The translations under genes and the position numbers were made by a program. A DNA stretch of 38,603 bases, from IMG/VR virus record IMGVR_UViG_3300027996_000077, positions 1 to 38,603 of that record. One strand, 5' to 3'. This stretch comes from a virus. Every line of letters starts with the position of its first letter. Positions within the stretch are counted from its first letter, which is position 1. Below, one piece after another: positions 5,540 to 38,407 of the stretch. Under the pieces are notes generated by a model. The model saw only the letters and a program-made list of their open reading frames with translations, was not told the DNA's origin and ran no database searches.

Positions 5540-6100
5540 TTAATGTTGTTTAAGTGCAATATATTTGTAGCCGTTCACGGCCATGAGTTCATTGTCATTT
5601 GTGATCTTCCATTTTCTTGACGGTACTTTTTCTCCGGGTTTAATTATCATTGCTTGCGGCTTGCTATCATCAATAAGCTTGTCGTGTTCTCCGCCATGGG
5701 ATTGGATCCTATTAGTATTTTTCAACCGGTCAAATTGTGTCCAGTTCAGATGAAGAGCTTTGGTGTAACAATAAAATTTTATGCCCGGCAATGCTTGCGC
5801 TATCATAGTCCATTTGTCAAGATACGCTTGACTATAAAAATCACTAGTATCGTGAATTCGGATGATTTTAATTGATCTTCTGCGCCTTATTTCCTTAATC
5901 ATTTCAGCAACAAACCATTTTTCCATTGACATTTCAAAAAGTTTTTGCCACCTATTTTTGCACCTTTTTTCGAACACTTTATAGAACCCATTTTCGCCAT
6001 AGCATGGACATTTACATCCAACACAATTTTTTCGTGGCTCAAGACCAAAGGCGTGAATTCCGAATTTTTTCATCTTGTCATTTTGCGTAAATATATTCAT
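5540..6100 (-). CDS. Gp88-family phage protein, 186 aa
   Basis: Resembles the 'gene product 88' family known from mycobacteriophages and many other phages, whose biochemical role is not established. Visible features: a Cys cluster NCVGCKCPCYGENG (Cys 26, 29, 31, 33) that could hold a metal or iron-sulphur centre; a basic helix near residues 68-76; RIHDTSDFYSQAYLDKW at 81-97; and FYCYTKAL at 109-116. The block H-D-[ST]-x-D-F-x-[SD]-x-x-Y-L-x-x-W then FYxYTK is the family signature as I know it. AAGGAG lies 6 bases upstream of the ATG at 6100. The length is near the usual 180-250 residues. Confidence 0.75.
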   Translation of the reverse strand: MNIFTQNDKMKKFGIHAFGLEPRKNCVGCKCPCYGENGFYKVFEKRCKNRWQKLFEMSMEKWFVAEMIKEIRRRRSIKIIRIHDTSDFYSQAYLDKWTMIAQALPGIKFYCYTKALHLNWTQFDRLKNTNRIQSHGGEHDKLIDDSKPQAMIIKPGEKVPSRKWKITNDNELMAVNGYKYIALKQH

Positions 6101-6119
6101 GTCGGTCTCCTTTTTGTTG

Positions 6120-6149
6120 GTCTCTTCCGTGAGACGGGTTTATATTTAG
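6120..6149 (-). repeat. Intercistronic hairpin plus shared 3' tail, copy 1
   Basis: On the minus strand the gene ending at 6146 has its stop inside CTAAATATAAACC, followed by a GTCTC/GAGAC hairpin (arms 6131-6135 and 6120-6124, 6-base loop). The 13-base word GGTTTATATTTAG (+ strand, 6137-6149) recurs at 6580-6592 with a hairpin of the same geometry but a different stem sequence. Confidence 0.45.
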
Positions 6150-6451
6150 TCGCATTTTTTAACTTCAAGTTTTTTGTACTCGTTTCTGTACTGATATTTT
6201 GAGACAAATTCGACTCCCATTTCTTTTTGAAGCATGGCCTTATCAAATAATGTTGAGTACCCGTCTTTTTGTACGATCACATAGTCTCCTGCAATGATTG
6301 TTTCCGTGTCTTTTTGCTCCATTAATATTGTGAAAAATTCCTTGAGTTCTTTCTCCTGTTTTTTCAGCTTATTCATTTTTTGTCTGATCATATTCAGTCT
6401 TCCGGCCTTGCTAATGACGTTTTGTTTTGTGGTTTTATGTTGCTTGCTCAT
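6146..6451 (-). CDS. Coiled-coil phage protein, 101 aa
   Basis: The ATG at 6451 is chosen because GGGG lies 7 bases upstream; the ATG at 6457 is too close to that site. It begins MSKQHKTTKQNVISKAGRLN, followed by a long Lys/Glu coiled-coil helix (about residues 20-50) and a small strand-rich end with IIAGDYVIVQKDGYSTLFDK and YRNEYKKLEV. The order helix, 'I-x-x-GDY-x-V', 'FDKxxLxxE', 'Y-x-KxxxYRxLxV' is like the small proteins often found beside YqaJ-type phage exonucleases. No such nuclease is in this window, so the link to recombination is only a resemblance. Confidence 0.65.
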   Translation of the reverse strand: MSKQHKTTKQNVISKAGRLNMIRQKMNKLKKQEKELKEFFTILMEQKDTETIIAGDYVIVQKDGYSTLFDKAMLQKEMGVEFVSKYQYRNEYKKLEVKKCD

Positions 6452-6462
6452 GTTCATTCCCC

Positions 6463-6543
6463 TTAAAGGTTGATGGTTCTATAGTTGTTAAAAATCTCCA
6501 GCATTAACATTGTTGCTCCGATTATGATTGCAAAAGTGATCAT
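6463..6543 (-). CDS. One-helix membrane peptide, 26 aa
   Basis: The frame reads MITFAIIIGATMLMLEIFNN followed by YRTINL. Residues 2-17 form one hydrophobic segment, enough to cross a membrane, and the end is polar. AAGGA lies 7 bases before the ATG. The stop is 11 bases before the next ATG, and that gene's ribosome site starts right after it. Position, ribosome site and composition fit a real small membrane protein. Phage peptides of this kind often modulate host membrane enzymes or block other phages; the target here is unknown. Confidence 0.55.
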   Translation of the reverse strand: MITFAIIIGATMLMLEIFNNYRTINL

Positions 6544-6563
6544 TGTGAGTTCCTTTCCTCTAT

Positions 6564-6592
6564 GAGCCATCCTTGGCTCGGTTTATATTTAG
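6564..6592 (-). repeat. Intercistronic hairpin plus shared 3' tail, copy 2
   Basis: After the stop at 6589 the minus strand reads TAAATATAAACC, then a GAGCC/GGCTC hairpin (arms 6575-6579 and 6564-6568, 6-base loop). Compared with copy 1 at 6120-6149, the 13-base word is identical while the stem bases differ in a pairing-preserving way. Confidence 0.45.
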
Positions 6593-7200
6593 GTCGCCAG
6601 ATGAATCATAAAACGGCGTTGAATCGTCCCTAATGGATTGACATTTTTTCCATAATACAGATCGGTGACGATCCTTAATAATTCGGTTCGGTCATCAGTT
6701 AAGTATGCATCTTCGATGCCACAATATGAGCACTGCTCGGAGTACATATCTTCGATGAACCGCTTCAGATATTTTTCATTGACGGTGCTCATGAATTTTG
6801 ATCCGACTGTTTTGGTAATGTTCTCAACGAAGTCATCATAATACTGTTCGAGGTCTTCTTTCTGTTGATCTGCCTCACGTTGGTAATAATCATCGTCGTC
6901 CAATACTGGATAATCAGTCAGCGCTTCAGCAATATCATCGAGCTTTTTAAGTTGATCGATTGCAGATTCATGAACAAGGATCTGCTCAAACCATCCACAA
7001 GCCCAATGTCCAAAACGATGAACCTCGACCGTTCCATCTTGTTCCCCACCGAGCATAAATAATGAGGTGGCGAAGTTCGATTGAGTTAAGATGTCCGAGT
7101 CCCTGCCTTGTGATGGGCCGATGTACCATTCTGATAAGTCTGGTCCCATATAGTTGTCGCTTCGTTCCCATTTATTTATGTGGTTGTATTTCTTCTTCAT
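6589..7200 (-). CDS. Conserved phage hypothetical protein, 203 aa
   Basis: The N-terminal third reads SEWYIGPSQGRDSDILTQSN and VEVHRFGHWACGWFEQILVH, then a helix ending in LTDYPVLDDDDY. The order 'Y-x-x-x-GQxRDSD-x-LxxSNF', 'HWAxGWxExIxVH' and 'ALxDYPVLDxxDY' is a widespread phage family of unknown function. A CSYCGIEDAY segment near residue 158 might add a metal site. The ATG at 7200 is preceded by AAGGAGG with a 5-base gap. The stop is embedded in the hairpin-tail repeat at 6564-6592. The distribution of the family in early phage operons suggests a host-interaction role, but this is unproven. Confidence 0.75.
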   Translation of the reverse strand: MKKKYNHINKWERSDNYMGPDLSEWYIGPSQGRDSDILTQSNFATSLFMLGGEQDGTVEVHRFGHWACGWFEQILVHESAIDQLKKLDDIAEALTDYPVLDDDDYYQREADQQKEDLEQYYDDFVENITKTVGSKFMSTVNEKYLKRFIEDMYSEQCSYCGIEDAYLTDDRTELLRIVTDLYYGKNVNPLGTIQRRFMIHLAT

Positions 7201-7210
7201 GATCGCCTCC

Positions 7211-7372
7211 TTATTTAATGATTGCGTCCAATATCCTACACATATCGATCATTGATATGGTGTTGCCTAGTTCATTGTCTTTCACCCACTGGATGATCAT
7301 TTGTTGTGGATTGATTCCAGCGTATTTGGTTTTGATGTTGGCTGCCGTGTTAATGATTGTTGTTTGGCTCAT
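7211..7372 (-). CDS. Hypothetical small early protein, 53 aa
   Basis: The frame starts MSQTTIINTAANIKTKYAGI and ends MIDMCRILDAIIK. It looks like two short helices around NPQQMIIQWV. AAGGAG lies 7 bases before the ATG at 7372. Its stop directly precedes the AAGGAGG of the next gene. It is the first gene of the long minus-strand early operon (7372 down to 3255) and therefore the first translated product after the regulatory region. No family recognised. Confidence 0.6.
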   Translation of the reverse strand: MSQTTIINTAANIKTKYAGINPQQMIIQWVKDNELGNTISMIDMCRILDAIIK

Positions 7373-7423
7373 GTGTTAACTCCTTGCGATCATTACTTAA
7401 TCAGTTGCCGAGTTGTTGCGGCA

Positions 7424-7465
7424 GATACAAAAACTATCGGGAAAAATTTGGAAAACTTTAGAAAA
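7424..7465 (-). promoter_or_regulatory. Shared upstream motif, copy 3 (diverged)
   Basis: On the minus strand TTTTCTAAAGTTTTCC (7465-7450) and then TTTCCCGATAGTTTTTGTAT match, in the same order and spacing, the two blocks found at 10101-10063. It lies about 50 bases upstream of the gene starting at 7372, where the early operon promoter is expected. Confidence 0.4.
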
Positions 7466-7761
7466 AACTTTTTTTATTTTACAAGTCAGTGAAAACAAAG
7501 GCGAATTAGGGCAAAAAAATTACCTTATGTTTGATTGAACATAGCGGTTTTCATTGCAATGATCAGTTTCGCTACTGCAATCACTTACCGTAATGATCAG
7601 TCTGGCTAATGGATACGATCAAACTTGCTTCATTTATGTATGGGCTCAATCATGTGCAATTTGCATAAGAAGGCGTTCATTATACATTGGATACATGGGC
7701 TCCAGGTATCATGATTGCGGGGATTAATAATAAGTGGAAACTGAGGTGCTCATTTACTGTT

Positions 7762-7782
7762 GTGATATCATCATGATATCAC
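7762..7782. promoter_or_regulatory. Perfect 10-bp-arm palindrome, operator-like
   Basis: GTGATATCAT (7762-7771) and ATGATATCAC (7773-7782) are exact inverted arms around one base. This size and symmetry suit a dimeric repressor. No gene starts immediately beside it, so it may act at a distance or mark a replication protein site. Confidence 0.45.
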
Positions 7783-7883
7783 CATGCAAGCATGTTCATT
7801 ATACAGTAGTATGCTGAACAACCATATATGGTGTGTGGATCTACTGCGCAGGCGTGAACATGGAGCCATGGTTCATTTATATA

Positions 7884-7897
7884 GGGGGGTGCCCCCC
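7884..7897 (-). terminator. G6/C6 hairpin, possible weak terminator
   Basis: GGGGGG-TG-CCCCCC can form a five-pair GC stem with a four-base loop. On the minus strand it follows the gene ending at 7976 and is followed by TATATAAAT, not a true T-run. A second possible stem before ATTTTTC lies at about 7935-7965. Termination here is possible but not secure. Confidence 0.3.
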
Positions 7898-7975
7898 GTC
7901 TGTTCTGGAAATATATATAACTTATTTCGTCTCGAAAAATCCCGGCTCCAAATTTCCGCCCGGCCTCTGATTTCA

Positions 7976-8218
7976 CTACGATAGCATGGCGCTATCATCA
8001 AGAAACTTCCAAATTTGTTTCTCAGCTCTTAGCAGAATCGCGCGGCCTGTAGACTCCATGGATGCGAAGGCGCTTTTACCATCCAAACTTATTCCGTGCA
8101 CATGAAAGTTCACACCGAACACATTGACGGCATCGAATGGATTATCGAAGTTTCTTCGGAACAGCTCACGGAGTGTGTAGTGGTCTTTGAACTCTGAGAT
8201 GTTTACGTGTTCGTACAT
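7976..8218 (-). CDS. Hypothetical protein, 80 aa
   Basis: Begins MYEHVNISEFKDHYTLREL and includes VFGVNFHVHGISLDGKSAFA, with a helix at the end. No family recognised. The ribosome site is poor (AGAG, 9 bases before the ATG). The ATG lies in a 15-base stretch identical to the start region of the gene at 11608 (both read AAACACCACATGTAC on the minus strand), which supports this start and hints at shared translational or operator control. It is the last gene before the large non-coding region. Confidence 0.55.
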   Translation of the reverse strand: MYEHVNISEFKDHYTLRELFRRNFDNPFDAVNVFGVNFHVHGISLDGKSAFASMESTGRAILLRAEKQIWKFLDDSAMLS

Positions 8219-8262: not shown

Positions 8263-8967
8263 CTAATTTCTGCAAATTTTACACTCTGACTTTCTGTGTC
8301 TGCGTTTCTTAGGTGTATATCCATTCTTAAATTTATCCCTTAAACTTAATAAATCAGCAGGTTGGGTGTCCCTTTGGGGCGATCGAAATGTATGGCCTAT
8401 GTCGGTTTCCCAGTCAACGCCTTGCTGATAATATTCCGGCCAATCAACCCAAAGCCGATACCATTCATAAAGGGTTTGATAAAAACAAACAGCACAGTCC
8501 GTTCTTGCGGGTGGCGAAAAACCCCTTAATTTACAATAATCGATAACGTCATTTATTTTCCATCCTTCATCTCTTAACGGGTATGCGTAATCCGCAAAAT
8601 CACCGTACAAACCAACTCGGCTGGTTTCATCTGCCCTAAGACCAACGGCAAGTATTTTGCGTTCGCCGTGCTTTAGAAATTTAATACAAGGCTCTATTTT
8701 GATCTGAATAGTACACCAGCGCATCCGCCAATTTGGCAAACAATTATGCTCTTCGATCAATTCGGCCAAGGTCGGTGCTTTTAGATTAATCAACTCCGCT
8801 CCGGTATACTCGACAATCCGGTCAATATGTTTACGGACTGGCGGTAGTTCGTTTCCGGTGGCGGTATGTAATAATTTGAACGGTTTACCGAGTTCATGCA
8901 ATCGCAAAGCCATTGCCGTTGAATCTTTACCACCTGAAAACGCTACTATCATCCGTTCAATATCCAT
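8263..8967 (-). CDS. PP-loop ATPase, PAPS reductase/DndC-like, 234 aa
   Basis: The N-terminus reads MIVAFSGGKDSTAMALRLHE; SGGKDST at residues 11-17 is the PP-loop that binds ATP in adenine nucleotide alpha hydrolases. RWCTIQIK (83-90) and a helix-strand order typical of the PAPS reductase family follow. Cys occur at 76, 85, 158, 161 (DCAVC), 229 and 232 (ECKIC), enough for a metal or Fe-S site. Family members reduce activated sulphate or load sulphur onto nucleic acids (DndC, in phosphorothioation). In phages the substrate is often unknown. No dnd partner genes are visible, so base or backbone modification is a guess. Its start overlaps the upstream gene by 11 bases. Confidence 0.75.
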   Translation of the reverse strand: MDIERMIVAFSGGKDSTAMALRLHELGKPFKLLHTATGNELPPVRKHIDRIVEYTGAELINLKAPTLAELIEEHNCLPNWRMRWCTIQIKIEPCIKFLKHGERKILAVGLRADETSRVGLYGDFADYAYPLRDEGWKINDVIDYCKLRGFSPPARTDCAVCFYQTLYEWYRLWVDWPEYYQQGVDWETDIGHTFRSPQRDTQPADLLSLRDKFKNGYTPKKRRHRKSECKICRN

Positions 8968-9843: not shown

Positions 9844-10017
9844 TTAGATTCTGGAACATCGCATAACAAATTCCTGACCTTTGTATTCGCATTTGTAATA
9901 CATCGCTGATTTTTCTTTTATGATATTATTTGCATGGCGATAACCAATAAAAAAACCTATCGCCGCTGCTATAAGAACCATAGTAATCAACCAAATATCG
10001 TCCAGCTTGTGTATCAT
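9844..10017 (-). CDS. Single-pass membrane protein, 57 aa
   Basis: The frame begins MIHKLDDIWLITMVLIAAAI and continues GFFIGYRHANNIIKEKS; residues 8-25 form one transmembrane helix. The C-terminal part has two Cys (YYKCEYKGQEFVMRCSRI) and may face the periplasm. AAGGA lies 6 bases before the ATG at 10017. It is the first gene after the shared motif at 10063-10101. The arrangement of anchor plus short Cys-containing tail is common among small phage membrane proteins, but I do not recognise the family. Confidence 0.65.
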   Translation of the reverse strand: MIHKLDDIWLITMVLIAAAIGFFIGYRHANNIIKEKSAMYYKCEYKGQEFVMRCSRI

Positions 10018-10062
10018 CGTAATTCCTTAATCATTAGATTTTTGAATATTATGCATACGGAT

Positions 10063-10101
10063 AATACACAAATCGGAATATCAAGGAAAAACTTTAGAAA
10101 A
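10063..10101 (-). promoter_or_regulatory. Shared upstream motif, copy 2
   Basis: On the minus strand this has TTTTCTAAAGTTTTTCC (10101-10085), then TTCCGATTTGTGTATTAT (about 10078-10061), about 45 bases upstream of the ATG at 10017. The second block matches 728-746 and both blocks match 7424-7465. TATTAT could act as a -10, but no TTGACA-like box stands 16-18 bases before it. Confidence 0.45.
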
Positions 10102-10140
10102 TCGTATAAACCACCAGATATATAGCCTTATTCAGTACAA

Positions 10141-10251
10141 TTAAAATTTTCTATTTTGAACGTGGAGGGTAGACGGTTTGACCCGCCCACTGTATACAAT
10201 GCCTGACTGCTCCGAGTTACGTGCGCACCCTTCTGCACCAGATACCCCCAT
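10141..10251 (-). CDS. Possible 36-aa ORF over a structured segment
   Basis: A short frame reads MGVSGAEGCARNSEQSGIVY followed by 16 more residues, with AAGG 8 bases before the ATG. The same DNA forms a strong hairpin (10162-10190, GTGG and GGGT arms with one bulge). An end-to-end 7-bp pairing, GGGGGTA with TACCCTC, also exists. The segment is more GC-rich than its surroundings. It could be a small gene, a structured RNA, or the terminator of the unit ending at 10267. The coding call is weak. Confidence 0.2.
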   Translation of the reverse strand: MGVSGAEGCARNSEQSGIVYSGRVKPSTLHVQNRKF

Positions 10252-10266
10252 AAATTAAACCTTGGT

Positions 10267-10443
10267 TTATCGAACGCGCCTTTCCTTGAGATAGTACTTG
10301 TTTAATATTCCCTCTGCTATCGGGACATACTTACTCCAACCGATTGGCGCATTATCGTTATCGATTTCTGACATAAAGAACGCCAGCTCCCATTCTGGCC
10401 TAGTTTCTATTTCTTTCTCTACATATGTTGGGTCAGACACCAT
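10267..10443 (-). CDS. Conserved small phage protein, 58 aa
   Basis: The frame begins MVSDPTYVEKEIETRPEWEL and continues AFFMSEIDNDNAPIGWSKY, ending in a basic helix. The order 'RPEWxLAFxxSExxNDNAPIGWSxYxxxA' is a well-repeated phage small protein of unknown function. AAGGAG lies 6 bases before the ATG at 10443. The tandem operators at 10493-10555 lie directly upstream, so this is the probable target of that repression, or it belongs to the end of the regulatory cassette transcript. Confidence 0.7.
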   Translation of the reverse strand: MVSDPTYVEKEIETRPEWELAFFMSEIDNDNAPIGWSKYVPIAEGILNKYYLKERRVR

Positions 10444-10492
10444 ATATAACTCCTTAATCAGTTCAGGAAATTTTAGTTTCTTTGAACGTCAT

Positions 10493-20061: not shown

Positions 20062-20622
20062 ATGGCTAACATGACAGCTGCACAAAAGTTTTTACTAAAC
20101 AGAATGAATACGACAGCATGGACCACCCAGATGGGCGATCTTATCGAAGACATCGAAGATGACATCGCTGTTCTTGAGGCAGAGAATTTAGTTGCTACCG
20201 GAACAATTACAACTGGCGAAATCCTAGCTCTTAACGCTACTCCGAAGACATTGATCGCTGCTCCTGGCGCAAGCAAGGCGATAGTGGTTGATGAAGTTCA
20301 GTTATTTCTTGATTACAATTCTGCAACTTATGCTGCAGACGCTGGTGAAGATTTAACTTTTCAGTATGCTACAAGCGACACGGTAGTTGCGGCCATTGAT
20401 AATGACGCAGTTACGTTTCTTACAGCTGGTGCTGATGCTCATTGGCTTGGCAAACCCCAAGCTTTATATGACGTACAAGCAGCCGGAAGTGGAGACGGTG
20501 TTCTTTTAAGTGGTTTTGATAATGAAGCCATTGAAGTTACTATCGCAACAGGCGAAGTAATCACTGGTGACAGCCCCATTAAATGGAGCATTAAATACCA
20601 CGTTGTAGATTATTTGACATAA
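20062..20622 (+). CDS. Head decoration or fibre protein candidate, 186 aa
   Basis: Starts MANMTAAQKFLLNRMNTTAW with a helical N-terminus containing acidic DLIEDIEDDIAVLEAE, which looks like a trimeric coiled coil, and continues as a strand-rich domain (VDEVQLFLDYNSATYAADAG). This helix-then-beta layout, placed straight after the capsid gene and before a strong terminator, fits a capsid decoration or head fibre protein. AAAGG lies 8 bases or so before the ATG. No specific family is recognised. Confidence 0.6.
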   Translation: MANMTAAQKFLLNRMNTTAWTTQMGDLIEDIEDDIAVLEAENLVATGTITTGEILALNATPKTLIAAPGASKAIVVDEVQLFLDYNSATYAADAGEDLTFQYATSDTVVAAIDNDAVTFLTAGADAHWLGKPQALYDVQAAGSGDGVLLSGFDNEAIEVTIATGEVITGDSPIKWSIKYHVVDYLT

Positions 20623-21615: not shown

Positions 21616-21965
21616 ACATAATACATCTTCCTGCAAATTCTCCAGTTGAAGTTACCAATGACTCTGGCACCTGGGCTCGTGGCAATACGGTCTTTGCTAA
21701 GAACACGGCTATGAATGCAGCTACTGCTACGAAGATAGATTTTCCTGAGCTGACTGGAAACGTACTTATTCGTCACATAACTGATGACATTATTGTTTGG
21801 ATTGGCGAGGACGAAGATATAACTGCTGGGGCAACGAACGTGTTTCCCCTAGAAAAAGGTGATGCTCTTATTGTGCAGATGTATAAGGGTAACGGCAATA
21901 ATCTATACGGCATAGCATCGAGCGGCACGCCAGCTGTTTATGCTGCGGGAGTAGCTAACGGATGA
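21609..21965 (+). CDS. Hypothetical virion-region protein, 118 aa
   Basis: The ATG at 21609 is preferred because it overlaps the microprotein stop; a TTG at 21591 is possible. Begins MVNIIHLPANSPVEVTNDSG, with strands around VLIRHITDDIIVWIGEDEDI and VFPLEKGDALIVQMYKGNG, and a Gly/Ala-rich end. The pattern 'NVLIRHxTDDIIVWIGxxxxI-x-x-G-x-x-x-x-x-LEKGD' looks like small phage head or tail beta proteins. The stop overlaps the next start by 4 bases. Confidence 0.6.
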   Translation: MVNIIHLPANSPVEVTNDSGTWARGNTVFAKNTAMNAATATKIDFPELTGNVLIRHITDDIIVWIGEDEDITAGATNVFPLEKGDALIVQMYKGNGNNLYGIASSGTPAVYAAGVANG

Positions 21966-24087: not shown

Positions 24088-24723
24088 ATGACATACATCT
24101 TCGGACCTCTAGATGTAGCCAATCTTGAGAACGTGTCAGCTGATCCCGCGACGTTCAATTCTCCTGGGCGTGCGATTTGGAACACTACGTCTCAGAAGGC
24201 TAAGGTTTATGACGGCGGCCAGTGGAAAGACTTAGGTGGGGCCGGAGGTGGGGCTGGCGCAAACTGGTCTGATCAAACTGGAGATGGGCCAGTTGAAGAC
24301 TTCGCTGACACGGGCGAGAAGACATGGCTTTATGAATCTGGCCTCACACAAAACTTGGTTTTGTTTCTTAAAGTCCCGGCGGCTTATGCTCCCGGCACAC
24401 AGATTAATTGCCTTATAGGTCTTTATTCACCTTCGGCTGCTAATACGATTCTATTAGAATCAACAACATATTTGATTCAGAAAGATACGGACGCAGTAAC
24501 TTCGACCACAAACTCTCATGCGTCCACGAATTCAGCTCTGACCAATACTGTAGCTGATCAGTTTCGAGAAGCCACTTTAGATCTCAGCGACGCAGCTGGA
24601 GAAGTAAACTCCGTAGCGATAGCCGCTGGCGACCTACTAAGAATAGTTTTAGTCCGAGGAACAGACACAGACACCGCAGACATTCGGTTCATTCCATCTG
24701 CGACTGAGCCAACATTTACTTAG
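24088..24723 (+). CDS. Fibre or tail-spike component candidate, 211 aa
   Basis: Begins MTYIFGPLDVANLENVSADP, then RAIWNTTSQKAKVYDGGQWK: a short repeat like the 'G-x-x-W-x-x-x-x-x-x-x-K-V-Y-x-G-x-x-W' motif common at the start of phage fibre proteins, followed by a Gly/Ala linker and a beta-sandwich (LTQNLVLFLKVPAAYAPGTQ and LLRIVLVRGTDTDTADIRFI). It starts 1 base after the preceding gene. It may trimerise and carry a receptor-facing domain. No closer family is recognised. Confidence 0.6.
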   Translation: MTYIFGPLDVANLENVSADPATFNSPGRAIWNTTSQKAKVYDGGQWKDLGGAGGGAGANWSDQTGDGPVEDFADTGEKTWLYESGLTQNLVLFLKVPAAYAPGTQINCLIGLYSPSAANTILLESTTYLIQKDTDAVTSTTNSHASTNSALTNTVADQFREATLDLSDAAGEVNSVAIAAGDLLRIVLVRGTDTDTADIRFIPSATEPTFT

Positions 24724-24733
24724 GGAGCCCGTC

Positions 24734-26839
24734 ATGAAGAGAATTCTATTTGTAACCTTACTTGCTATTTGCGGGCTTCTCATAGGTGCGCAGAAGCAAA
24801 CAGACCAGTCTCAATTACCAAAGTACAACACTCTTAAAAACCCTGGAGCTGAGAACGGCCTGTCTCAGATGGCCATCTCTAGCTCGACTCTAACTAAAGA
24901 GACCACTAATCCTTTGTTTGGTAAGACATCGTTCAAGCTTGACACGGATGCAGACGGGGACTACGCCGAGACTTTACCGGTAGATATCGCGGAAGGTTTG
25001 TGGGGAGCTGATTGCGAAATCAGTATGGTCTACCGAACTGAGGCAGGTTTCACCGGGGCAGGTTACAGTCTTATAGCTATGGATGATAGCAGCAATCCTC
25101 TTGTCTCCGTGGATCTTGTACCTGCAACGACGCAGCAATCAATCTTTGCAGCGTTTACATGTCCGAGTTCTGGTGGTTTGAAATTTCGTTTAGAGTCAAA
25201 TACGGTCAATGGAAAGTACGTCATCTACGACCAGCTTTGGCTTGGCAGCAACCTGCATACGTTTGAGTATAGTGAATCTGAGTTTATTGGGACTGGTATT
25301 TGGCGGCAGGATACAGGATGCTCATGGTTAGGAAACGTAGCAACAACATGGTCGTATTGGGGTGTTGATAATGATTGTTTAGATACGACTTTCACCGGAA
25401 AAGTTTCAATTCCTGCAACAAATATTCCCGGTTTCAGGGTTGAGGGCGGTTTGGAACCTGGCAATTATATGATTTCTGTTAACGGAACCATAATGTCAGA
25501 TACAGGAACTTGTGATTTCCGCGTTACAGATGGCACTAACACTAGTGGTTTTACTAAAGGCGTTGACAGTGGACCAAATACTTATTCAACAGGTATGTTG
25601 GCTCATTTTCAATACACTGAAGCGCAGGGTGATACGACGTTTCAACTTCAATATTATAAAGAATCTGGCGCGTCTTGTTATGTACATAATAACAACACCG
25701 CAGTTTTAAACGGCCTTGAGTTTAAAATGTGGAGGTTGCCATTGGCCTCCCAGAAAGCAGTCACGCTGGATACGCAGGGTTGGCAAGTGCTCGGCAGCAT
25801 TTACGGTTCTCCGGTTCCAAGCTTGGGTTCCACTGATGTTGCGACTTACACCGGGGTTATATCAACTGGCTTAAATTTGGATCTAGATTCGAATAGCTAT
25901 CCTGCTGAAATAGCTTGCGATGGCACAACGGAATCAAGCGGAACAACTTGCACTGGCGGTACCACAACCGAGTCTGTTGGTGTTTCATTTGATATTCCTA
26001 GGGCTGGCTCTTATGTTGCCACGTTTACTTTTGGTTGGCACACAAGAATACAAAGCGGCGCCGAAAATAAAGCAACTTTTCAGTTAGTCGAAACGCCAAA
26101 CAACGCACAAACAATAAGCCAGGAAGGGCGCAGCAGAATACAAGGATCTATTTATGATAGTGACGCTAATACAACAATGACAAATCCATTTACTTTGGAA
26201 GGATACTTTTATTTTGCTTCAGCAGGTAAGAAAACTATACGGTTGTTTTTTGAACAACAAGTTACAGGAACGGTAACGTATTCAGATGTAAATACTGATA
26301 GGCTAGCAACCGAGGGCCAGCGTGATGTTAGTTTTTATATCAGACCCGCAACCAATGAATTCCCGCAGGCGGTTGTGTTGCCGGATGTTGTATCGTATGT
26401 AATGTTAGACACAGGCAGTGCTCATGGCGATGGGACACATACAAAAATAAGAGATTTTGAAAATGTTACAGAATCGGCAGGAAATTGCATCGATGAAAAT
26501 GTAACAAGCGGTGACTCAGATACAGATGGCGTTGAGCTAACGGTTTTATGTGCTGGTACTTATCAGATAACTTATGTTGATTCAAATGCAACAGGATCAA
26601 CAGCAGTAATCATGGGTATTACAGTAAATCAACCACCGTCTTATAACATAAATGTGAGCAGCATAACGCCACCTACAAAAATAGGTTATAGTTCAGTTTT
26701 ACCTACAGCAGATGGATATCATCATACTTGTTCAGCAACGGCTCACCTGTCAGTTGGCGATATAATAAGGTTTGGGACTAATGGCTCAGCTGATAGTGCA
26801 ACTTTTAATGAGTTTGTCAGAATGGTAAGGGTTCACTAA
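24734..26839 (+). CDS. Exported beta-rich protein in the virion operon, 701 aa
   Basis: The N-terminus MKRILFVTLLAICGLLIGAQ is a typical Sec signal peptide: two basic residues, a hydrophobic core and a likely signal peptidase I site around residues 19-21 (IGA-QK). It is not a good lipobox. The mature protein has strand-rich, Gly/Thr/Ser-rich modules: YNTLKNPGAENGLSQ (a carbohydrate-binding-module-like start), paired-Cys segments, and the C-terminal block from about 560 to 701 resembling C1q/TNF-like trimer domains (YVMLDTGSAHGDGTHTKIRD, TYQITYVDSNATGSTAVIM, HLSVGDIIRFGTNG). Export is unusual for a gene in a capsid/tail operon. It could be a host-surface factor or a spike that matures outside the cytoplasm. 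GGAG lies 6 bases before the ATG. Confidence 0.65.
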   Translation: MKRILFVTLLAICGLLIGAQKQTDQSQLPKYNTLKNPGAENGLSQMAISSSTLTKETTNPLFGKTSFKLDTDADGDYAETLPVDIAEGLWGADCEISMVYRTEAGFTGAGYSLIAMDDSSNPLVSVDLVPATTQQSIFAAFTCPSSGGLKFRLESNTVNGKYVIYDQLWLGSNLHTFEYSESEFIGTGIWRQDTGCSWLGNVATTWSYWGVDNDCLDTTFTGKVSIPATNIPGFRVEGGLEPGNYMISVNGTIMSDTGTCDFRVTDGTNTSGFTKGVDSGPNTYSTGMLAHFQYTEAQGDTTFQLQYYKESGASCYVHNNNTAVLNGLEFKMWRLPLASQKAVTLDTQGWQVLGSIYGSPVPSLGSTDVATYTGVISTGLNLDLDSNSYPAEIACDGTTESSGTTCTGGTTTESVGVSFDIPRAGSYVATFTFGWHTRIQSGAENKATFQLVETPNNAQTISQEGRSRIQGSIYDSDANTTMTNPFTLEGYFYFASAGKKTIRLFFEQQVTGTVTYSDVNTDRLATEGQRDVSFYIRPATNEFPQAVVLPDVVSYVMLDTGSAHGDGTHTKIRDFENVTESAGNCIDENVTSGDSDTDGVELTVLCAGTYQITYVDSNATGSTAVIMGITVNQPPSYNINVSSITPPTKIGYSSVLPTADGYHHTCSATAHLSVGDIIRFGTNGSADSATFNEFVRMVRVH

Positions 26840-27690
26840 TGAAACTAATCCTAATCATTTTTCTTTTATGCGCGGCGTGCGGCGAGCAGCATGAAGAAGC
26901 TGAGTTCATGGGTTCCATGGAGCATGCTCTTGCGATTCAGGGAAGCTACATCACTCAGGTGGGCCGTGGCTATCAGCTAACGACTCCGGGCGATGCGTTG
27001 ACGTTTGTATCCATGGCGGCCACGTCAACTTGCGCAAAGTTTCTATACCGTCATGAGTACAGCTACGACGAAGAATTAAACCTTACACATAACACCGGGC
27101 AGTGGAACCGGTACGTGGAGCCTGTTTATGAAGACGGAAGGTCAAGATCGGGAATCAGTTTTGAAGGCGAGACTGGAGCGTTACGGTATCTCTTTAAGTG
27201 CGGAACAAAGAAAGCTGTTGCTAGACACAAACAATTTCTTGAAGACAACGATTACGTTGCGGGAGCCGGACCAACCAAATACACGAACGTCTCATTGCTT
27301 CGAGGACTTGTATCTAAACTATCCAAGAGTAGTCATACACAATTTCGCGGCAAGCTAGGTGGCAGTTGGTGGACGAACATTTTAAAATCTTATAAGGCAG
27401 CGGTCATAGCGAACTACATAGAACTCTACGGGCGGGTAAGTGGTTACATCGAGGATTGGCATTATGACTTCATGGAAGAAATCGTAGCTGCCAATCCCAC
27501 CAACCCACTGTACCACGCAATCTACCACAAATACGGGGATGGTGACCAGTCGGAAGCAATCCGAATTCTCTCTGATGAAGACACGTTTCCGTTCGGTAGG
27601 CTGCCGGAAAATCACCAGGAGCGCTGGGGATGGGGAGATGCCCCGTCAGCAATACTATACATATTTACAGTAGACGTAATAAAGGAGTAA
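26839..27690 (+). CDS. Lipoprotein encoded in the virion operon, 283 aa
   Basis: Begins MKLILIIFLLCAACGEQHEE: a short basic start, hydrophobic core and lipobox (CAAC) with the lipid-accepting Cys at residue 14. It should be exported and anchored to the host membrane. The mature part is about 270 residues, mixed alpha/beta, with TSTCAKFLYRHEYSYDEELN and a Trp-rich end (HQERWGWGDAPSAILYIFTV). No enzymatic motif is recognised. The start overlaps the previous stop as TAATG, so it is co-produced with the exported 701-aa protein. Together they suggest a phage-made cell-surface function during late infection, or virion parts that pass through the envelope. Confidence 0.65.
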   Translation: MKLILIIFLLCAACGEQHEEAEFMGSMEHALAIQGSYITQVGRGYQLTTPGDALTFVSMAATSTCAKFLYRHEYSYDEELNLTHNTGQWNRYVEPVYEDGRSRSGISFEGETGALRYLFKCGTKKAVARHKQFLEDNDYVAGAGPTKYTNVSLLRGLVSKLSKSSHTQFRGKLGGSWWTNILKSYKAAVIANYIELYGRVSGYIEDWHYDFMEEIVAANPTNPLYHAIYHKYGDGDQSEAIRILSDEDTFPFGRLPENHQERWGWGDAPSAILYIFTVDVIKE

Positions 27691-28089: not shown

Positions 28090-30330
28090 GTGGCACAACT
28101 ACGAATAGATGACTTTTCGGGCGGAAAGACCGACAACTACGTCAACGGACCGGTCAATGCTGCTCAAATAGTAGATAACGTCCTGATCGATCGCAACCGT
28201 AAGTGGTACGTTCGTAACGGTAGTGAAATCGACGACATCGATTACTACCAGATCCCAGCCGGAGAGCACCGGATCTCAAACCTTTATGAACTGAAAGACC
28301 AGCTTTTTAAATTTAACGCTAAGAACATTTATTTCATCGACGGTGGTTGGAACACGCTGACCGGCCCCGTCGATAACAATACGGCCTTTGGCGCAGGAAA
28401 CGCAAACTCACACCAGTGCCTGGCCGAGTGGAACTCACACTTGTTCATGACTATAGATGAGCACTCTAGCCCAAGGAAAATGTTTTACGATGGTTCAGAC
28501 TGGCAAGTGCGAACATCGGGACTTACAGGAATTGGTTCTGATCCTACTATCACGCCTGATGCAAACGACGGAAAATCTTACGTCTACTCATTTAACCGCA
28601 AATATACATATACCGTTGGAAGTGTCACATTTGTTGATCGAGGGCCAACCCGTTATGTTCAAGTCACCGGAGCCGCTGACTTCAGCGGAGTGGGCCACTA
28701 TAATCAGGTTTCCTCTATTCCGGTGCTCGCGAATGGAGCCACGCAGTGCTGGGATACTGCAGCGGTTAAGGTAGAAGTCTACCGAACGACAGACGGAGGG
28801 ACTACGTTTTATTACGCCGGGGAGGTAACCAATGGCACTACGACATTCGAAGATGACGTTACAGACGCTTCTTTGGTGGGCAACGCTTTGTTATATACTA
28901 CTGGGGGTGTGTACGACAATGATCCTCCTCCTCAAGCCAAGTATATTGCTGTAGCCAACGACATCGCCTGGTACGCCAACGTCAAAGAAGGCTCAGAGGA
29001 AATTGAAAACCGCATATACCAATCAAAACAATATGACCTTGACTCTGTTCCAGGTTCTTTCTTTATAGATATGGACGAAGATATCTCTGCCATCAACTCG
29101 GTGGGGATCTACCCCATCGTTTTCAGTGAGCGAAAGGCATACCGTCTAGAGGGCTTCGTCGATGAAACAGGTCGCGGCTTTACCAAGAAACGTGAAATCT
29201 CAGATACTGTTGGATGCGTCTCCAATGATTCGGTGATCAAAGTAGTAGGCGGCCTTTTCTTCTGCTCTCTAGACGGCTTTTACTTCACCGATGGCTTCCG
29301 GGTTCAAAAGCTCTCGCGTCAGCTTAATGATACCTACAAAACTTTCGTCGAGTCAGACACGCAGAAAAAAAGAATCTTCGGAACCTTAGACATTAACTCC
29401 GAGCGTTGTTACTGGTCCGTACAGTCTAGCGACAGCAGTACTGATAACGACACTGTTTACGTTCTGGATCCATACTGGGGGCTCAAGCACGAGTCTTGTT
29501 TCACAACGCTTAGCGGAGGGGCGAACTTCGCTCCTTCGTCGCTTCTGTTTGTAGGTGGTGACCTATACCGGGGAGATGACCGTGGCTATACGTTCTCTCA
29601 CGGGACCACAAACTATAATGACCCAGTGATCAACACGCTTACCGCCCCTTCGACGTGGTACGCCACGGCCGTGATCTATGATTACACGTCTACGGCGTTT
29701 GGCTTTGGCACTGAGGTTAATCGCAAGTGGGTCACAAGCATTGTGCCATCGTTTCACAATATCACAAACCTATCGCTGTCAATTCAAAGCTCTAACGATG
29801 ACTCACAAAACTTCACTCCGCTGAAAGAAATACGCTTTCGAAACAACATAGTGTGGGGTGATGAAGAGACCATATGGGGCGATGAGTCGGTCATATGGAA
29901 CTTCAATGAGATGGCTATTCGTATGAGGCGCTTTCCGGCTGGTAGCCTACGCTGCACGTATAAGCAGGTAAAGTTCACCAACGCGCTTACGAACATTACA
30001 TCTTCAGATGATTATGAAGACGCAGTCTGTGACGGAGGGACCAACACGGCTACGATTACAAATTTTGATTGGTCAACCACCAATAGAGGGCAGTTTTTTA
30101 CAACGGACGAGGATGCTTACAGTGAGCTATTTGAAATAATAGCCCGCACGGATAAGGTACTTACAGTAGAAGATGCCCATGACCGCTTTCCAACCGGACC
30201 AAGAAAGTGGATAATAAAGGGATACAGGAAAGATGAGCGGATCAAGCTCGAGGCATATACAATTCAGTATGAAGTCTTCGGAGAATCACATCCAAGATTT
30301 ACAACCTCGGAGCTAGGCGGCAATGCCTGA
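28090..30330 (+). CDS. Tail nozzle / stabilisation-like protein, 746 aa
   Basis: Starts with GTG at 28090, with AGGAG 6 bases upstream. A long beta-rich, propeller-like protein: DFSGGKTDNYVNGPVNAAQI at the start, repeated 'Y/F-W-x-S/D' and 'GD-x-Y' blades, KVEVYRTTDGGTTFYYAGEV near the middle, and REISDTVGCVSNDSVIKVVG in the second half. The 'G-x-x-SN-x-S/D' blade after a KREIS strand is typical of podovirus tail hub proteins (T7 gp12-like or P22 gp10-like). It would form the lower tail tube sealing the DNA channel. Its stop overlaps the next start by 8 bases. Confidence 0.75.
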   Translation: MAQLRIDDFSGGKTDNYVNGPVNAAQIVDNVLIDRNRKWYVRNGSEIDDIDYYQIPAGEHRISNLYELKDQLFKFNAKNIYFIDGGWNTLTGPVDNNTAFGAGNANSHQCLAEWNSHLFMTIDEHSSPRKMFYDGSDWQVRTSGLTGIGSDPTITPDANDGKSYVYSFNRKYTYTVGSVTFVDRGPTRYVQVTGAADFSGVGHYNQVSSIPVLANGATQCWDTAAVKVEVYRTTDGGTTFYYAGEVTNGTTTFEDDVTDASLVGNALLYTTGGVYDNDPPPQAKYIAVANDIAWYANVKEGSEEIENRIYQSKQYDLDSVPGSFFIDMDEDISAINSVGIYPIVFSERKAYRLEGFVDETGRGFTKKREISDTVGCVSNDSVIKVVGGLFFCSLDGFYFTDGFRVQKLSRQLNDTYKTFVESDTQKKRIFGTLDINSERCYWSVQSSDSSTDNDTVYVLDPYWGLKHESCFTTLSGGANFAPSSLLFVGGDLYRGDDRGYTFSHGTTNYNDPVINTLTAPSTWYATAVIYDYTSTAFGFGTEVNRKWVTSIVPSFHNITNLSLSIQSSNDDSQNFTPLKEIRFRNNIVWGDEETIWGDESVIWNFNEMAIRMRRFPAGSLRCTYKQVKFTNALTNITSSDDYEDAVCDGGTNTATITNFDWSTTNRGQFFTTDEDAYSELFEIIARTDKVLTVEDAHDRFPTGPRKWIIKGYRKDERIKLEAYTIQYEVFGESHPRFTTSELGGNA

Positions 30331-36500: not shown

Positions 36501-37198
36501 CTGATTACTTGCTTCGAAACGGAGCAAGGTTTGTTAAAAAAGTCAAAGGTGGTACTCGCTACTCTATGCTTCCTACAATGTCAATGTATGACGCTGCCCT
36601 TGGCGTACCGCTATCAATGGAAGCTGCCGGTGAATACTTGGAGAAGGTAGCACCACATATTAAACTTCCGTTTGAAATCTTTATGGACAAAGATCTCTTC
36701 ACGAAGACGCCACTTCGCCCATCAGCAGCAGGTAGAAAGTTCCTGTTTAGCCGTGGGTTCAAACACTTTGCTCTTCGTAAGATGATCGGACGCATGGGAC
36801 TGGATCCTGACGGTACGCTAGCTAGGATCCTTGCCGTCAACGGCGTAGAGATAACAAAGAGTGGTCACCCAGTAGCCAAGGATGACATGCAGGTCATACT
36901 CGATAAAGTTTACTCTACAGTATTTCCCATACCCATCGTTGATCAGGTGGCCGGAGCCATTGGTAAGACTATCTATGACCGTGAGACTGCACTTGAAGTT
37001 ATGTTAAACATGGTCACACCAATGAAACAAACTGAGATGAGCGATAAGTTTGGTCGCCAGGTTAGAAAAGAAAAACTCTACCCCAATATAAGAGAGCTAA
37101 AGCAGAAACGAAAGCGTCAGAAAGAACTAAGAAACGAAGAACGCCGCGAACGACGAGGGGAGCGTTACCGAGAAAGACGAAAGCGTCAAGGCTATTAG
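33581..37198 (+). CDS. Very large internal virion / ejection protein, 1205 aa
   Basis: The largest product in the window. The N-terminus has three 17-residue repeats, each beginning ILDKYR or ILNKYR, then a basic and helical body. Gly-rich hydrophobic segments lie at about residues 312-355 (GSGAAIGGVGGVAAA and ALWGLGGAVLGMGARAGA) and could enter membranes. A second half rich in Lys, Arg and aromatic helices follows (for example VMRRIVPFWGFHSRNMRYWA near 925). The end is extremely basic (REKLYPNIRELKQKRKRQKE). This size and composition fit the large internal proteins of podoviruses (T7 gp16- or P22-ejection-like); no lytic transglycosylase motif was recognised. Its stop overlaps that of the endolysin on the other strand. 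Confidence 0.7.
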   Translation: MPENILDKYRRKKTTDTASEGILDKYRRPQKTTQDETNILNKYRQKKPQTDFSHDEATVARVKEQMGPKSFIKKEDRYIPEEGMIQHLGGVLDFIDNIKRSFVIGVSGKIDQPQGDFSRGIQYAKEAWDKRRYTSLSDFADTVMMKKSLGKDDNQFDFGDVFDFVRQAIPTPQNITREVGAMPRRFGVDQDGEITFGDPFDVARDMVVDAATSPLTYLSGGLSAVAKGGFLASKLPGLHKILTAGKYEKIMEKAVKEGPKLVAASPATAKKYAMLKTGVKAATSDEAIKTLDKAKDLSKLAEGMGDVAKAAQTFRLGSGAAIGGVGGVAAAPPESSLAEKALWGLGGAVLGMGARAGAPKAHALGQKAMTKLTDDYMEATRGVKGFTKLHEGIGEAFENLGKAANWLAQRKFHALAGLTDGQAIHTTGLMRRYRNRFLELREPRIKKLDKWRVDNSLLPKEYKEELSILNSLKKKGDIDDVEFARKKAVMDNAKKEIDDKYFQQRNLIDNEITEQMDRYVAADLAGEAGKVIHAVRKWEGFNQVAGKRMSDAMKKNPKDRGFLGIKWHVENFADKKEYKRFEDILDSDKVIRAKGKKYHGAAYDLAPKPSFTRQAWEKATGTELEGALKRVRQGEDLAQMAYAEKAAAMLLKPADREMIRAHKLISEMDVTSGLFKKTPVMKWVFSQPSIKTGEFVLKKWDNLLQFFKTNALYASTSWLKNNYWDNLTKAYVQNGLGSVVGTASLRMGPAVRKAGLVAAKKAGVEKIAGRRVNDMLTKYQKTLERDMWQMYRGKLPDRELQPLMEEALTYGIIDKPLFTTMLDDTAKGFIFNDKMKLGKDKFFLKQMLDGYTDTLGRTVGAVGSYFEGTARLNTYVRTRDMLMKTAVGTSPETARKIAAQVTKDTFFDYAKMLHPFEKAVMRRIVPFWGFHSRNMRYWADAILDPERVSRVRNAVKLMEQIGDPLTEEQKQMTSDYLLRNGARFVKKVKGGTRYSMLPTMSMYDAALGVPLSMEAAGEYLEKVAPHIKLPFEIFMDKDLFTKTPLRPSAAGRKFLFSRGFKHFALRKMIGRMGLDPDGTLARILAVNGVEITKSGHPVAKDDMQVILDKVYSTVFPIPIVDQVAGAIGKTIYDRETALEVMLNMVTPMKQTEMSDKFGRQVRKEKLYPNIRELKQKRKRQKELRNEERRERRGERYRERRKRQGY
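33591..33743 (+). repeat. Three in-frame 51-bp coding repeats
   Basis: Copies start at 33591, 33642 and 33693, exactly 51 bases apart, and encode 17 residues each with conserved (I)LDKYR or ILNKYR heads and variable tails. The DNA head word ATATCCTTGATAAATATA is well kept in all three. The repeat may bind several copies of a partner or vary in number between relatives. Confidence 0.8.
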
Positions 37199-37644
37199 CT
37201 CGACGGCTTCGACATAAAATCCATGATAGGTCTATAAAAACCCACAACGTCGCTACGATAGTGCCACGGTCTGACGCGGATGAAAGCATTCTGAAGCGCA
37301 GCTATTTCTTCATCAGTGGTCCCACGGCCACCCCCAGAAGCTTCAACGATCTTATCGTCACCCAGAAAGATAGCAACGTGGCTGACTTTCTCGGAGCCCT
37401 TGCCGTAAAAGACAAGATCTAAAAACTGTGGCTCAAGCTTACCTACGACTTGCTGATGCTTGAAAAGATTGTACAGACCCTGTGAGCTGAAGTCAGTGCG
37501 GTGCGGTATAGCGCCTGCTGCCTGCAAGATTTCAACAGCGAATCCTGAACAGTCAAAGCCACGGATCGGATCATCACCAGCCCATATGTATGGGGTACCA
37601 AGAAAACTCATAATGTACGAATACAAGATACCGTGGCTCAACAT
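37195..37644 (-). CDS. NlpC/P60-family endolysin, 149 aa
   Basis: Probably cuts cell-wall peptide for lysis. The NlpC/P60 fold is visible: PYIWAGDDPIRGFDCSGF puts the catalytic Cys at residue 32, VSHVAIFLGDDKIVEASGGG puts the catalytic His at 89, and IVEA holds the usual following polar position. Length fits a single-domain enzyme with no wall-binding part and no signal peptide, so it needs a holin to cross the membrane. AAGGAG lies 6 bases before the ATG. Its stop codon overlaps the stop of the 1205-aa gene on the opposite strand by two bases, so the two operons converge without a spacer. Confidence 0.85.
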   Translation of the reverse strand: MLSHGILYSYIMSFLGTPYIWAGDDPIRGFDCSGFAVEILQAAGAIPHRTDFSSQGLYNLFKHQQVVGKLEPQFLDLVFYGKGSEKVSHVAIFLGDDKIVEASGGGRGTTDEEIAALQNAFIRVRPWHYRSDVVGFYRPIMDFMSKPSS

Positions 37645-37654
37645 GTCTTACTCC

Positions 37655-37837
37655 TTAGTCTACGCCCAAAGCTTTGGCTACGATCTCAACGACTGCGTCG
37701 TCAAGAGAGTTATCAGATTTCTTAGCCAGCTCTCTGAGATAGTCAACGAACATTTTCATGGCTTCTTTAACCATGTCATCTGTTACAACCTGTGTAATAA
37801 GATACGATAAAATTTTAACAACCCATGCGTTACCCAT
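37655..37837 (-). CDS. Small lysis-region protein, 60 aa
   Basis: Begins MGNAWVVKILSYLITQVVTD and continues DMVKEAMKMFVDYLRELAKK, ending VVEIVAKALGVD. Mostly amphipathic helix with no membrane-spanning segment. GGGAG lies 7 bases before the ATG. It sits between holin-like and endolysin genes, an arrangement seen in many phages with small helical lysis-cassette proteins. It may regulate the holin, but no family is certain. Confidence 0.6.
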   Translation of the reverse strand: MGNAWVVKILSYLITQVVTDDMVKEAMKMFVDYLRELAKKSDNSLDDAVVEIVAKALGVD

Positions 37838-37865
37838 AATAAAACTCCCTGTAAAATGTTATGAA

Positions 37866-38075
37866 TTATGCTTGTTCCAAAACCGAGAGTCTACGTCCGT
37901 GAGCTTCGACTTTGGTGTGAGCTTTAACGCAATCTTCGTGGTCATCCTCAACTTTCTTTTTAAATTCTTTAAAGTCTTTTTTGAGATCATGAAGATATAG
38001 CCAAAGTATAAGTAAAATCGGTGAGACAGAACCTGCGCCAGTAAGAAGTGATTCTATGATCCGTAAGTCTTCCAA
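37866..38075 (-). CDS. Holin-like membrane protein, 69 aa
   Basis: The start is TTG at 38075, with GAGG 9 bases upstream; no ATG is available. One membrane segment lies at about residues 18-29 (SPILLILWLYLH), preceded by LLTGAGSV, and the rest is a charged coiled coil (DLKKDFKEFKKKVEDDHEDC, VEAHGRRLSVLEQA). The 'TM then DH-x-x-C-x-x-x-x-x-x-x-x-H-x-R' layout is typical of small phage holin-like or lysis-accessory proteins upstream of an endolysin. A spanin or anti-holin role is possible. Confidence 0.55.
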   Translation of the reverse strand: MEDLRIIESLLTGAGSVSPILLILWLYLHDLKKDFKEFKKKVEDDHEDCVKAHTKVEAHGRRLSVLEQA

Positions 38076-38107
38076 ACTAAAATACCTCTAGTACTATTTT
38101 ACCACAG

Positions 38108-38407
38108 TCAGGCTTGCTGTGCCATTAGCTGCAATCGTTTGAAAACTTCCGGCCAGTTCTCCGGACTCACCACCCATGCGGTGCCCCATGCACCTTGTAT
38201 CTGGGATATAATATATTCTTGAAGCGGATCTGCTTTGGCCTTCTTATCTCGCTTCAGTTCAAGTGCAATAAAAAGTCCACGAATACAACAAATAAAATCA
38301 GGGATGCCACGAACAGAAACTTCTTGTGTTTTAAAAAACCAGCAATAGGGCAAAGTGTTAAGCTCCTTTCGGACCTTGTTCTTGAACTTTGTCTCCGGCT
38401 GCTGCAT
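38108..38407 (-). CDS. VRR-NUC domain nuclease, 99 aa
   Basis: A stand-alone PD-(D/E)xK nuclease of the VRR-NUC family, thought to cut branched or nicked DNA in phage replication or recombination. Motifs: GIPDFICCIRGLFIALELK gives Asp 37, Glu 50 and Lys 52, and DPLQEYIISQIQG gives Gln 63, in the family order. Length is typical of the minimal single-domain type. The ATG at 38407 lies inside the polymerase gene, 50 bases before that gene's stop, so the two overlap and are translated together. No strong ribosome site is visible other than purine-rich bases before the ATG. Confidence 0.8.
   Translation of the reverse strand: MQQPETKFKNKVRKELNTLPYCWFFKTQEVSVRGIPDFICCIRGLFIALELKRDKKAKADPLQEYIISQIQGAWGTAWVVSPENWPEVFKRLQLMAQQA

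Follow-up and report, generated by a model that had tools for sequence, protein, structure and literature searches.

Two probably exported proteins in a virion operon

What would two apparently exported proteins, one of them a lipoprotein, do when they are encoded inside the virion operon of a phage? The question is raised by two adjacent genes at 24734 and 26839 of the window, by which we mean the whole stretch of DNA that was analysed, an entire IMG/VR virus record that is 38,603 bases long and classed as linear. The virion operon is the + strand half of the window. Its 13733 gene gave a weak terminase match, which was confirmed by relatives at ~50% identity. The genes at 15628, 17736, and 18737 are named portal, scaffold, and major capsid by inference from position and relatives, because none of the three had a significant family match in the window. 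Fibre-like genes start at 21962, 24088, and 24734. The features used below are as follows:

24088..24723, + strand: 211-aa signal-less short fibre-like protein, directly upstream of the 701-aa gene
24734..24790, + strand: Sec/SPI-type signal peptide of the 701-aa protein (aa 1-19), also in homologues
24734..26839, + strand: 701-aa exported fibre/adhesin-like protein
26839..26880, + strand: lipoprotein signal peptide with lipobox LCAAC, Cys14 as the predicted lipidated residue, and Gly at +2
26839..27690, + strand: 283-aa lipoprotein, a diverged copy from a newly found family of phage lipoproteins
27694..28080, + strand: 128-aa conserved late protein, found after the lipoprotein in the window and in several relatives
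28090..30330, + strand: nozzle/stabilization-like virion protein (PHROG 511, E=5e-15)
30649: adaptor (SU10_adaptor, E=2e-13)
37195-38075, − strand: NlpC/P60 and holin-like genes

The nozzle/stabilization-like gene marks the operon as one for virion proteins; it also closes, as a conserved right-hand boundary, the slot that lies between it and the fibre genes. The signal-less protein of 24088 has an N-terminal domain common to many fibre genes of relatives and a C-terminal domain common to two genes of locus L123. The lysis cassette (37195-38407) lies on the − strand, opposite the virion operon. It encodes an NlpC/P60 protein, a 60-aa protein with a counterpart in L119, and, as labelled by eye, a holin-like protein with one TM segment and a VRR-NUC-like ORF. 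The − strand also carries a phosphoadenosine phosphosulfate reductase-like auxiliary gene at 8263-8967 (PHROG 424, E=7e-38).

The 701-aa ORF starts with the Sec/SPI-type signal MKRILFVTLLAICGLLIGA, which is followed by QKQTDQ and preceded by an SD-like AGGGAG; the protein is probably cut between IGA and QK. The 283-aa ORF starts with the lipoprotein signal MKLILIIFLLCAAC, which is followed by GEQ and preceded by AAGGG, and its start codon overlaps the stop of the 701-aa gene (TAATG). These features agree exactly, down to the coordinates, with the sequence-only reading, which had described a Sec signal, a lipobox on the next protein, and an overlapping stop and start. The lipobox LCAAC is near-consensus, the Cys at −3 breaking the strict PROSITE lipobox pattern, and its Cys aligns to a column that is Cys in 19/19 family members.

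N-termini were scored by a simple rule of our own (net positive n-region and 10-residue hydrophobic core) and not by SignalP. Among the late + strand genes of the window, only 24734 and 26839 scored convincingly. The same strict rule flagged 13/17 lipoprotein homologues, with the lipobox cysteine still present in the failing ones, and 3/4 homologues of the 701-aa protein. For 13 further late genes, it flagged 0/342 homologues from related contigs (a figure summed over these genes). Because only two late genes of the window score, and because 0/342 stands against 13/17, the export-type N-termini are not due to chance.

The lipoprotein belongs to an unnamed phage family

As a lone query, the 283-aa protein gave no matches. 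A same-slot relative in L104 matched it with E=2e-19, and a three-sequence alignment then brought in 18 viral loci; with L128 added, the alignment (A4) held 19 full-length members of 283-367 aa. A profile held out from the window copy and from the signal region found the window protein at E=3e-28. On sequence grounds, the 283-aa protein is a member of an unnamed family of predicted phage lipoproteins. It had no named or characterised relative in Pfam, PHROGs, phage records, or plasmids, and a second viral scan returned no further members. The uncharacterised protein A0A6J5PFQ2 of an uncultured Caudovirales phage belongs to the same family and fold (54% identity, TM 0.88).

The 19 rows of the alignment share 11 invariant columns, the lipobox Cys among them. 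Two pairs of further cysteines are kept or lost together: Cys 47/85 are both present in 15 members and both absent in 4, and Cys 250/267 are both present in 17 and both absent in 2, with no mixed case for either pair. This is as would be expected of disulphides formed outside the cytoplasm. The window copy (~270 aa mature) is divergent, having lost both Cys pairs and the QRD motif and carrying D98 to E and H176 to A. With these conserved pairs and the motif gone, the function of the window copy may be diverging.

For member L117, AF2 gave a confident model (pLDDT 87.5, pTM 0.87), a compact, mostly helical domain. Foldseek gave no PDB match at E<=0.001 for it, and a PDB profile search of the lipoprotein gave non-significant matches only. 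The best overall superpositions, on AprG and a GH76 mannanase (TM ~0.4, E>1), point faintly to an alpha/alpha barrel but were too weak to build on.

A scan of bacterial genomes with one pattern found a single locus, L128 (JANQNH010000015.1), and did not find the family in Bdellovibrio or other bacterial chromosomes; absence from these genomes is a weak negative because a single pattern was scanned. L128 has capsid, fibre, and nozzle-like genes besides the lipoprotein and is binned in a MAG labelled Candidatus Nanoarchaeia. This placement is probably a binning error, because the contig is phage-like and carries the lipoprotein.

The 701-aa protein resembles an exported fibre

Behind the signal peptide, the 701-aa protein consists of a jelly-roll-like repeat (~aa 34-171), a TNF/C1q-like domain (aa 179-307), and beta-rich C-terminal modules. 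The repeat is common to L122-L124, L126, and L132, and the signal peptide is kept in 4/5 homologues (L122, L123, L124, L132). Family searches of Pfam, PHROGs, phage records, and plasmids returned no named relative. The AF2 model is all-beta and of low confidence (pLDDT 42), and because it was poor, it was left out of the structure search.

Residues 179-307 match PDB 8OKW (E=4.5e-5) with a shared Cys. The entry covers residues 691-843 of Bd2734, a MAT (mosaic adhesive trimer) fibre that Bdellovibrio bacteriovorus exports and displays on its surface, and these residues form its TNF-like tip. Fibres of the MAT type resemble phage fibres, are exported, and carry S74 or TNF-like tips; deletion of Bd2734 slightly slows predation by this bacterium. 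The match comes from a single-sequence search, as it was missed by a profile built from five fibre homologues. The window protein shares a signal peptide and the TNF-like tip match with the MAT fibres, but it is phage-encoded, its match is internal rather than C-terminal, and its gene is paired with a lipoprotein gene. Moreover, MAT fibres have a conserved ~130-aa beta-rich domain right after the signal, whereas no such separate domain is evident in the 701-aa protein, where the jelly-roll-like repeat follows directly. A beta-rich stretch, possibly of this kind, is present in the L122, L124, and L132 fibres.

Cysteines per residue were higher in signal-bearing large ORFs (n=10) than in signal-less fibre-like genes adjoining the lipoprotein (n=14; Mann-Whitney p=0.0015, an optimistic value because the sequences come from related phages). 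The difference is consistent with folding of the signal-bearing fibres outside the cytoplasm. Together with conservation and the paired cysteines, it makes the predicted export of both proteins well supported.

The lipoprotein gene is linked to fibre genes

The gene directly upstream of the lipoprotein gene is fibre-like in 16 of the 19 loci, a label given, partly by eye, to long, repetitive, beta-type sequences or short tip-like proteins and backed by the 24088 domain in few. Many of these pairs overlap or touch; one or two short genes intervene in L122, L124, and L126. The lipoprotein gene occurs in podo- and myovirus-like contigs, and L122, L124, and L132 have, by our own reading, baseplate-J- or gpI-like genes. 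Homologues of the 701-aa protein lie near the lipoprotein in L122, L123, L124, and L126. As these four are phage types other than that of the window, the pair is common to distant phages. In L132, a signal-bearing 577-aa homologue of the window fibre is followed, within 5737-8217, by a different exported Cys-rich protein of 239 aa, which replaces the lipoprotein.

The fibre-lipoprotein link persists where lysis genes are elsewhere, as in the window, and L104/L116, L110, L112, L113, and L127 have no lysis genes between the lipoprotein and nozzle genes. The lipoprotein gene can also adjoin lysis genes (L119, L117, L124). Its stable genomic link is the fibre gene. Many family members have no signal-bearing fibre upstream, so the lipoprotein and the exported fibre need not act together.

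Signal peptides on other virion-operon genes of relatives

The gene family encoded right after the major capsid gene has members with a cleavable-looking signal in L013 (16679-17221), L022 (11308-11892), L028 (9763-10347, 10364-10915), L035 (16262-16867), L040 (11046-11612, 11637-12182), L064 (16187-16732), and L070 (11356-11964). The L036 member (10013-10474) is without a signal peptide and matches that of L035 with E=5e-37, the signal being an N-terminal extension. The post-capsid gene of the window (20062-20622), only a putative member of this family, has none. Since the post-capsid family comes in both forms, these phages may export virion-operon proteins as a general habit. The premise of the sequence-only reading that structural genes rarely carry export signals holds poorly in this clade, whose post-capsid gene often bears one. 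A further case is L071 (13713-14858), where a signal peptide precedes a normal fibre N-domain and a C-terminal domain that matches tail-fibre PHROGs. This C-terminal domain has the look of an S74 chaperone/protease, so that the phage protein is laid out in a MAT-like manner.

A proposed late surface-masking pair

Our preferred reading, to which we assign a probability of roughly 0.45, is that the two genes encode a late, exported pair for receptor masking or surface remodelling, Llp-like in its working. We favour it because T5 Llp and other exclusion lipoproteins have their genes beside one for a receptor-binding protein. T5 llp is adjacent to and downstream of the gene for the receptor-binding protein pb5 (PMC9586334), and exclusion lipoproteins encoded beside the receptor-binding protein gene are known (PMC9586334; PMC11990801). 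The fibres that adjoin the window lipoprotein and its relatives are putative receptor-binding proteins, and the separate signal-less short fibre of the window (24088-24723) also speaks for masking.

Both genes would be expressed late, probably as one transcript, and their products would be exported from the infected cell's cytoplasm. The 283-aa protein would receive a lipid anchor and, as the inspected members have no Asp at +2, would probably be taken to the outer membrane; the 701-aa protein would be a secreted fibre-like lectin whose TNF/C1q-type modules are stabilised by disulphides. The pair may then occupy or hide the receptor used by the phage itself, or glycans nearby on the surface, which would keep progeny from re-adsorbing to the dying cell or to its debris and would shut out other phages. 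The mode of action would be like that of T5 Llp, but with an unrelated, much larger lipoprotein and, in some genomes, a secreted adhesin. T5 Llp and T1 Cor are likewise phage lipoproteins with a lipobox Cys. The window protein is, however, several times larger, predicted to be all-helical, and without sequence similarity to them; neither their small size nor a sequence relation to them was found in the family, whose members measure 283-367 aa and gave no match in PHROGs, Pfam, or phage records. Early expression of T5 Llp is indicated by the title of a reference in PMC11990801, whereas the window gene lies in a late operon. The sequence-only reading had proposed late decoration of the host surface with exclusion or biofilm effects. 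Given that the lipoprotein gene comes after fibre genes and that the 701-aa protein is similar to an adhesin exported by a predator, a host-surface role in exclusion is its most likely part, and we do not retain biofilm.

The strongest rival is that the exported fibre folds with disulphides in the periplasm and joins virions as the envelope breaks. Until then, the lipoprotein would serve as its chaperone in the periplasm or hold it at the membrane. The sequence-only reading had likewise suggested spike parts that are added during exit. This rival draws on genes outside 24734-27690, since further virion-operon proteins of the clade also bear signal peptides: those of the post-capsid family, with its signal-less L036 version, and that of L071. 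A signal-less short fibre is nevertheless encoded next door, and the lipoprotein also stands beside signal-less fibres, for which a periplasmic helper would be needless. We know of no tailed phage shown to attach exported fibres to virions at exit, which also counts against this explanation, and we regard it as unlikely.

The resemblance of residues 179-307 to the tip of Bd2734 would also fit a phage of a predatory or surface-attaching bacterium that exports a MAT-like adhesin and thereby changes attachment or predation of its host. This is a single, internal domain match, however, and the one-pattern scan, although weak as a negative, did not place the lipoprotein family in Bdellovibrio, so such a role for the genes appears rather improbable.

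It is improbable that the lipoprotein is a part of the lysis module, i.e., an o-spanin-like outer-membrane lysis protein. Like Rz1, it is a late phage lipoprotein predicted in the outer membrane; in several relatives, the fibre-nozzle slot also holds endolysin, holin-like, and small lipoprotein genes, and in L119 an NlpC/P60-like gene directly follows it. Against this, 9.5 kb separates the lipoprotein gene, which remains beside the fibre gene, from the window lysis genes on the other strand, and the protein has the predicted fold of a compact helical domain and not of a short extended spanin. No partner inner-membrane spanin was found nested in or adjacent to it, its neighbours being the fibre-like gene and 27694. 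Several loci of the family, including L122, L123, and L124, have a separate small lipoprotein beside the endolysin. Small lipoproteins of this kind (73-99 aa) lie near or beside endolysin genes in L093 (5632-5931), L096 (13337-13558), L100 (12902-13261), L101 (3253-3495), L122 (7210-7470), L123 (7381-7605), and L124 (7233-7481); several end in a C-terminal (F/Y)(I/V/M)C motif, and they are possibly an undescribed spanin-like family.

Finally, the hydrophobic N-termini could be virion or scaffold features of ordinary structural proteins, in line with the place of both genes in the virion operon and with signal prediction by simple rules. This is very improbable given the absence of such N-termini from the 342 other late homologues, the invariant lipobox Cys, the paired cysteines, and the Cys-rich signal-bearing fibres.

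Meaning for phage biology

Through its tie to fibre genes, this previously undescribed family of phage lipoproteins opens receptor blocking or surface remodelling to a direct test in phages that metagenomes alone have revealed. The signal-bearing fibre connects phage fibres with the exported MAT adhesins of predatory bacteria. It is a doubtful prospect that a tailed-phage lineage routes some fibre and decoration proteins via Sec, with periplasmic disulphide folding, a dedicated membrane lipoprotein that handles or anchors them, and action at the host surface or joining of the virion only at lysis. If this were true, the MAT adhesins of Bdellovibrio would have phage counterparts that already carry signal peptides. 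The recurrent signal peptides on virion-operon proteins of this clade call into question whether everything encoded in such an operon is assembled in the cytoplasm.
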